DNA from: Candidatus Jettenia caeni
GTDB lineage: Bacteria > Planctomycetota > Brocadiia > Brocadiales > Brocadiaceae
DNA length: 64,000 nt
Direction of reading: 5' to 3'
NCBI GenBank assembly: GCA_000296795.1
Contig: BAFH01000003.1
Coordinates: 1,488,401 to 1,552,400, forward strand
Below the pieces are notes generated by a model. That model was not told the origin of the DNA. It was given only the letters and a program-made list of their open reading frames with translations, and made no database searches. The position numbers were made by a program, and so were the translations under genes. Below are positions 33,990 through 47,919 of the stretch, one piece after another (the stretch's first letter is position 1; each line of letters starts with the position of its first letter).

Positions 33990-34186
33990 AAAAGATTCCC
34001 CAGTCTGTCATTGCGAGGGTTTTTTCCGAAGCAATCTTTTCTGAACTATTCAAGGAATTGCTTCGGACACTACCCTCGTAATGACATTTTCAGAATCCTC
34101 TCCATTTCATACATTTACCTATTAGCCAAAGACTCAACTTTCTCCCTATTCTGTTCGGTTTCATCTCTCGGATACTATAACCGCAG
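33990..34186. repeat. Dispersed repeat, inverted copy of 47118-47307
   Basis: About 195 bp match the reverse complement of 47118-47307. The core 34006-34086 has inverted ends TGTCATTGCGAGGGT and ACCCTCGTAATGACA; the right edge GGTTTCATCTCTCGGATACT is the family E end. A short open frame across it is repeat sequence, not a gene. Confidence 0.7.
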
Positions 34187-46951: not shown

Positions 46952-47118
46952 TTTTTAAGTTTTTACCTATAACTCCTTATGATTTTTTCCACCCCTAAAA
47001 AACCGTCCCCGATGTGTCCCCGGAACGTCACCAAATCAAACGAAAATACTTTCAAATGTGATGAATGAGAATAATAAAGGCTCATAGTGTAATATACAAA
47101 AACCTGAAAAGACTTATT

Positions 47119-47348
47119 ATAGTATCCAATAAATGAAACCGGACAGAATAGGGAGAAAGCTGAGTCTTTGGCTAATGGGTAAGTGTATGAAATGGAGAGG
47201 ATTCTGAAAATGTCATTACGAGGGTAGTGTCCGAAGCAATCCTTTGAATAGTTCAGAAGAGATTGCTTCGGAAAAGACCCTCGCAATGACAGACTGGGGA
47301 ATCTTTCTGTAGTTGATGATATGTTCGGTTTCATTATTCGGATACTAT
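47119..47348. mobile_element. Inverted-repeat element, family E, with an inner palindrome
   Basis: Ends ATAGTATCC...ATGAAACCGGACA and TGTTCGGTTTCAT...GGATACTAT mirror each other across 230 bp. Inside, 47211-47291 is an 81-bp inverted repeat (TGTCATTACGAGGGT / ACCCTCGCAATGACA). Most of it recurs inverted at 33990-34186. The adjoining 46951-47118 holds no gene. Confidence 0.65.
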
Positions 47349-47436: not shown

Positions 47437-47919
47437 AAAGTCCCCCTTAACAAAGGGGGATTCAGGGGGTTGTTTTCCTTGACAAGGGGTGTTAAAAATA
47501 TCATATGAGGATTTACTATAATTCAAAATTAAAAATCCTTTCCAGAGAACTCAGAAAAAAGAGTACTTTGTCAGAGGTCTTACTCTGGAATATATTAAAA
47601 GGCAAGAAAATAAAAGGGTATCAGTTCATGCGGCAAAAGCCCATTGGCGACTATATCGTTGATTTCTTTTGTAATAAGCTAAAATTGGTAATTGAAATTG
47701 ATGGTATTAGCCATAATGAAAAATCTGCGAGCGATCAAATAAGACAACAGAAGTTAGAATCATTAGGTTTATCGGTGTTACGGTTTTATGAATGGGATGT
47801 TAAAAAAGATATACACGCTGTAGTGCGGGTAATTGAAAACTGGATAGAAGAATTTGAAAGGAAAGATACAACTACAAAAAACACAACCCCCTGAATCCTC
47901 CTTTATTAAGGGGGACTTT
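47437..47919. mobile_element. TIR-bounded DUF559 element
   Basis: Left AAAGTCCCCCTTAACAAAGG (from 47437) and right CCTTTATTAAGGGGGACTTT (to 47919) start a pair of ~40-bp inverted repeats that continue GGGATTCAGGGGGTTG inward with only a few mismatches. They enclose one gene and nothing else; its stop codon lies in the right repeat. Each repeat is itself a CCCCCTT/AAGGGGG hairpin, like REP sequences. No clear target-site duplication was found. Confidence 0.65.
47505..47894 (+). CDS. DUF559 endonuclease-like protein
   Basis: A 129-residue DUF559 protein, related to Vsr/PD-(D/E)XK nucleases. It has the usual ELRKKSTLSEVLLWNILKGK start, then FMRQKPIGDYIVDFFC with D53, and LVIEIDGISH with E64 and D66, the probable metal site. 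It ends LRFYEWDVKKDIHAVVRVI. Family members are thought to be DNA nucleases, without a firm role. No ribosome binding site is visible. The last codons (TTTKNTTP) and the stop are read from the right inverted repeat. Confidence 0.85.
   Translation: MRIYYNSKLKILSRELRKKSTLSEVLLWNILKGKKIKGYQFMRQKPIGDYIVDFFCNKLKLVIEIDGISHNEKSASDQIRQQKLESLGLSVLRFYEWDVKKDIHAVVRVIENWIEEFERKDTTTKNTTP

Follow-up and report, generated by a model that had tools for sequence, protein, structure and literature searches.

A Vsr/EDxHD-type nuclease gene between inverted hairpin ends looks like a minimal mobile element

REP/REPIN repeats and the RAYT (TnpA-REP) enzyme constitute a system in which a gene lies between inverted hairpin repeats and the repeats also spread alone and as back-to-back pairs. 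RAYT is a HUH Y1 transposase, and REPs are tagged by GTAG or CGTC. Known EDxHD homing endonucleases are found in introns or inteins or are free-standing. Rickettsia palindromic elements (RPEs) are palindromes inserted in frame in protein-coding genes, and to our knowledge they encode no nuclease. We know of the E. coli box C only as an orphan repeat. How do DUF559 nuclease genes and their flanking hairpins relate to these systems? DUF559 units resemble REP/REPIN–RAYT systems both in the gene between inverted hairpins and in the solo and paired spread of the ends. However, DUF559 belongs to the PD-(D/E)XK-type nucleases, and neither tag is found by reading in the arms of the unit described here. 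DUF559 units share in-frame insertion with RPEs but carry a nuclease and span many phyla. Like homing endonucleases, they appear to occupy one site (in MetH) recurrently; unlike known EDxHD homing endonucleases, they possess hairpin ends and, in host genes, are apparently translated within the host protein. The repeat that we take to be box C displays the hairpin architecture of DUF559 units, adjoins the DUF559 gene ycjD and is dispersed. By working principle, DUF559 units are closest to homing endonucleases and REP–RAYT pairs. CGTC REPs have been described without a dedicated transposase and with DUF559 unmentioned (Di Nocera 2013, PMC3733652), and no paper that links DUF559 to such hairpin repeats was found among open-licence PMC papers.

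The window, which is the whole 64,000-nucleotide stretch of Candidatus Jettenia caeni DNA analysed here, contains one such unit. Inverted-repeat search, reading and folding delineated a left arm (47437-47481, + strand) and a right arm (47875-47919, - strand) as the element ends, and the arms are 45 nt each, 89% complementary and separated by 393 nt. Both arms combine a hairpin with a gene-side run of G (left) or C (right). In the left arm, the hairpin at 47441-47460 (stem TCCCCCTT/AAGGGGGA) is followed by the linker TTCA and a G-run at 47465-47469 that faces the gene, and the right arm contains a C-run at 47887-47891 and a hairpin at 47896-47915. The DUF559 nuclease gene (47505-47894, + strand; 129 aa), defined by its ORF, Pfam and an AlphaFold model, ends with a TGA stop codon (47892-47894, +) within the right arm. 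No other ORF in the ORF list lies between the arms, and a Pfam search detected no Y1_Tnp (PF01797) HUH transposase there. An earlier note on this DNA had proposed a DUF559 gene enclosed by ~40-bp hairpin inverted repeats, with the stop codon inside one repeat and the nuclease as the only protein between them, and the arrangement is indeed as proposed. The flanks yield a local alignment score of 65, compared with 16-20 for five shuffles. Folded as single-stranded DNA, the hairpins exhibit a modest gain over shuffles (z -1.6 to -2.1), and the evidence therefore resides in the inverted pair and its recurrence and not in fold energy alone. The right hairpin is weakened by one T, which is C in both sister genomes.

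Are such arms a general property of DUF559 genes? Among 80 named DUF559 loci, 78 had sufficient flank for a search for inverted pairs with a score of at least 30 within 250 bp, and the controls were 386 ORFs from the same contigs at a distance of 1 kb or more. Inverted arms were found at 57 of the 78 DUF559 loci (73%) and at six of the 386 control ORFs (1.6%; Fisher p 4e-48). A lack of such repeats at related DUF559 genes would, according to the earlier note, have refuted its proposal, and the outcome mostly favours the note. An explicit hairpin model gave at least one inward hairpin at 79.5% of DUF559 loci versus 3.1% of control ORFs, and inward hairpins on both sides at 55% versus 0%. Vsr is a cellular repair nuclease with a fold similar to that of DUF559, and the same inverted-arm test was positive for 0/26 Vsr genes and for 21/24 DUF559 genes of the window's relatives. 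The modest z-scores of single hairpins would suit an origin by chance or composition, that is, GC-rich palindromes near a small gene, but the scores lie far above those of the shuffles, the neighbour-gene controls and the Vsr control, and a reversed-sequence control produced zero genome matches. This explanation, whose probability we regard as negligible, is already refuted by the controls. A strong inverted pair is missing at 21 of the 78 loci, which suggests that some DUF559 genes have been domesticated, have decayed or follow another way of life.

The DUF559 loci are distributed over about a dozen phyla, including Pseudomonadota, Bacteroidota, Thermodesulfobacteriota, Myxococcota, Chloroflexota, Nitrospirota, Omnitrophota, Planctomycetota, Chlamydiota, Melainabacteria and others; only six phage records matched. 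The common architecture is a C-rich stem, a loop, a G-rich stem, a short linker or second hairpin and a G-rich tail that faces the gene, with the mirror image beyond the gene. The C-termini of the nuclease ORFs extend into the right hairpin, generating peptides such as PPLTPPLKGG. The more alike the nucleases, the more alike their hairpins (Mantel r 0.35, 0/2000 permutations), a correlation that shared descent could also produce. The G-quadruplex was rejected as a defining feature given that the canonical motif occurs in only 22 of 57 arms. A general search for target-site duplications at the arm edges found none (mean longest direct repeat 3.8 versus 4.5 in controls). A DDE insertion sequence or MITE was likewise rejected, with no DDE transposase ORF inside the arms and no systematic constant-length duplication. 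At one locus (L002, 1380-2050), degenerate half-hairpin arrays surround the DUF559 gene, which suggests a stepwise accumulation of ends.

Judged from sequence, the gene and its ends recur as a unit, and the ends also occur solo or as gene-less pairs. Searches with each element's own arm elsewhere on the same contigs (733 kb) recovered 45 solo copies compared with five for the reversed arm. The window-type hairpin is present in 31 of 33 family genomes, with as many as ~80 copies in a genome, and none of the 33 contains the reversed pattern. The exact window arm (up to three mismatches) occurs in its own genome only at the two sides of the gene, and a looser pattern finds six copies, of which two are the element ends and four lie elsewhere. 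The same genome contains two further DUF559 loci whose hairpins differ but share the architecture, and at C4:190.8-191.0 kb, hairpins of another DUF559 type stand back to back in pairs with no gene between them.

Something other than DUF559 could move the solo hairpins. The hairpins could represent an independent REP-like family that is mobilized by another enzyme, such as RAYT (an HUH Y1 transposase), with DUF559 as a bystander or cargo. Nine Y1_Tnp matches in the window's own genome, the large excess of hairpins over DUF559 genes and the richness of these genomes in other nested repeats are compatible with such a family. However, six tested Y1 transposase (RAYT-type) loci of that genome have hairpins of other kinds and lack the DUF559 type. 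Of the genes next to hairpins, DUF559 stands out by far as the enriched one, the kind of hairpin goes with the kind of nuclease, and DUF559 is the sole enzyme in the inserts within MetH, LeuRS and PriA. We thus consider an independent family unlikely. The earlier note had treated repeats that are present genome-wide without a link to the gene as contrary evidence; the genome-wide dispersal is real, but the missing link is not, as hairpin type tracks the nuclease.

Comparison of interrupted and uninterrupted alleles establishes that genes uninterrupted in their relatives have received units and ends by insertion, often in frame. hsdR was compared among relatives of the window's genome (loci L016 and L149-L157). 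Site 1 contains a DUF559 unit in L016, L149 and L150 and a gene-less hairpin pair in L156 and is empty in L151-L155. Site 2 contains a different DUF559 type in L152-L155 and the site-1 type in L156, and both sites are empty in L157. In HsdM, the unit lies between residues matching 447 and 451 of 3khk, and in HsdR and HsdM alike it is in frame. Host-gene domains flank DUF559 on both sides within one open frame in at least ten of the 80 named loci. In-frame units, some of them within essential genes, are observed in MetH (L102, twice, and L108, L129, L130 and L133), LeuRS (L111), MetRS (L121), PriA (L074 and L095) and an Lhr-like helicase (L099). Relative to solved homologues, the MetH insert comprises 141 residues in place of 15, and the LeuRS insert comprises 161 residues in place of 12. 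Such inserts are not only assembly artefacts because L108 and L130 derive from cultured type strains. Inspected by eye, the inserts end in Pro/Gly-rich linkers with no obvious splice residues, and the in-frame insert is apparently not spliced out but translated within the host protein.

At MetH site 1, the nucleases form two supported clades in rough trees built from few columns, one consisting of L108 and L129 and the other also including the site-2 copies of L102 and L133. Nuclease identity does not track MetH identity at these inserts. These data suggest that one MetH site has been occupied repeatedly, as in homing, although the trees are rough. The uninterrupted homologues, the gene-less hairpin inserts and the two nuclease clades at one MetH site collectively show that the DUF559 unit inserts. 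Hairpin-only inserts were also noted. LeuRS of L111 contains, after FILEKDP, an extra hairpin-only in-frame insert (STSPAGGGGRAGDG) beside the DUF559 insert, and an Eco57I-type methylase gene (L100, 8651-13297) contains a DUF559 insert and several in-frame hairpin-only inserts encoding PSPSGRGVGGEG-like peptides.

The E. coli DUF559 gene, ycjD, adjoins a hairpin of the DUF559-unit kind, which we take to be box C. The ycjD-type repeat occupies a median of 14 places per E. coli genome (range 1-24), and no more than one partial inverted partner is left at ycjD itself. A copy of the repeat that lies between pstA and pstB is present in some E. coli strains and absent in others; in this single case, the insert comprises 84 bp plus an 8-bp duplication (ACACGGTT), and a deletion between two direct repeats would look alike. 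Polymorphism without clean junctions was observed at the ppc-argE, phnP-yjdP and glycosyltransferase hairpin loci of E. coli. Of 5426 complete genomes, about 3330 have the full fabI-sapF interval, in which ycjD resides. The presence or absence of ycjD was rejected as a clean empty site, as the examined strains without ycjD carry a regulator and an efflux-pump operon instead.

What kind of enzyme does the window gene encode? The protein matches PF04480 (DUF559) with 111.8 bits (gathering cut-off 20.6); its Pfam hits include a sub-threshold match to MTES_1575 as the only other match and none to Vsr (PF03852). The AlphaFold model (pLDDT 91.6) superimposes in VIA-align on the solved DUF559 protein 3hrl with a Z score of 15.3 and, as the best match outside DUF559, on the catalytic domain of the EDxHD homing endonuclease I-Bth0305I (Z 11.7, rmsd 2.7, 94 residues), followed by Vsr (Z 9.5); the fold is also similar to that of HJC. 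Residues invariant over 42 relatives include R17, T21, E24, W28, D53, F54, E64, D66, G67, H70, D77 and R93, and among these, E24, D53, E64, D66 and H70 are candidates for the EDxHD catalytic residues. A genome paper assigned a DUF559 gene to the EDxHD homing endonuclease family (PMC9403480). The window protein is thus predicted to be a Vsr/EDxHD-type PD-(D/E)XK nuclease.

The similarity to Vsr and HJC also accommodates a host-serving role, in which DUF559 would be a structure-specific nuclease (Vsr- or Holliday-resolvase-like) for hairpin processing or defence and the hairpins would regulate or terminate the gene. PADLOC reports a weak match to a methyl-directed restriction enzyme, some DUF559 genes adjoin or split DNA methyltransferase genes, and ycjD occurs widely in E. 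coli, where few hairpins remain next to it. We nevertheless regard such a role as improbable, given that terminators or regulatory hairpins are not expected in frame within essential genes, or as one sequence that recurs inverted at either side of a gene, and that patchy presence and diverse occupied sites fit a mobile unit better. As to methyltransferase genes, a DUF1156-type DNA methyltransferase gene on a Synechocystis sp. B12 plasmid (L139, 2316-4840) is apparently split by a DUF559 gene, and DUF559 adjoins DUF1156-type DNA methyltransferase genes in related plasmids.

The reading that we favour, and hold to be probable on comparative evidence, is a minimal mobile element that consists of one Vsr/EDxHD-type nuclease gene between inverted hairpin ends. 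The mobility of DUF559 units is well supported by sequence comparison, and DUF559 as the driver of movement is what we infer. The nuclease would recognize either the target site or the hairpins that bound its unit and nick or cut DNA at the hairpin or target, and the unit, or the end pair alone, would then be copied in through repair or template switching. The ends alone would spread as non-autonomous REP-like repeats. The unit may settle in coding genes as an apparently unspliced linker-nuclease-linker insert because its ends are GC-rich and readable without stops. The earlier note had seen the layout of a minimal mobile element whose hairpin ends recall REPs, and solo ends, gene-less pairs and the interrupted and uninterrupted alleles in relatives bear this out; its suggestion of a homing-like element draws on the fold and on the apparent repeated use of one MetH site, and the nuclease is the putative driver.

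Recurring across many phyla, the gene and hairpin unit has the look of a mobile element class that has so far gone unrecognised, and there is a real chance that DUF559 units are a new class. More tentative, and somewhat short of an even prospect, is the full proposal of a categorically new element class, in which one small nuclease with hairpin ends mobilises both itself and a bacteria-wide family of orphan REP-like repeats, inserts in frame into conserved genes, among them essential ones, and persists there unspliced through translation within the host protein. If true, palindromic repeats that are dispersed in bacteria and have long been orphans, the repeat next to E. coli ycjD among them, would acquire a candidate mobilising enzyme, the REP–RAYT idea would gain a second, non-HUH enzyme, and a selfish nuclease would tolerate life within, for example, leucyl-tRNA synthetase and methionine synthase. 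The mover of these repeats would become directly testable with one small protein, for which the solved DUF559 structure 3hrl exists.

Within its genus, the window unit occupies the same place in all three genomes, and no movement of the window copy itself is visible across them. Empty sites, for which the earlier note had proposed a test, are found in relatives at hsdR, and MetH and LeuRS have uninterrupted homologues, but the site of the window copy is filled in all three. The genus' other DUF559 copies and solo ends likewise have no clean empty sites, as the orthologues are filled or located in nested repeats. The left arm of the G001 orthologue is identical to that of the window, and that of G002 differs by one stem substitution. 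In G002 (L043; G002:C86 11521-12446), the nuclease gene is broken by a ~410 bp insertion with inverted ends AAGTACCTGA/TCAGGTACTT, and the hairpin ends remain. The window contains other repeats. A MITE-like repeat of ~230 bp at 47116-47348 has inverted ends of 27 nt, encloses a nested palindrome (47211-47291) and is present in dozens of copies across the three genus genomes. The nested palindrome family, TGTCATT(A/G)CGAGGG...CCGAAGCAATC, has a second copy at 34006-34086 of the window, in the form of an inverted pair.
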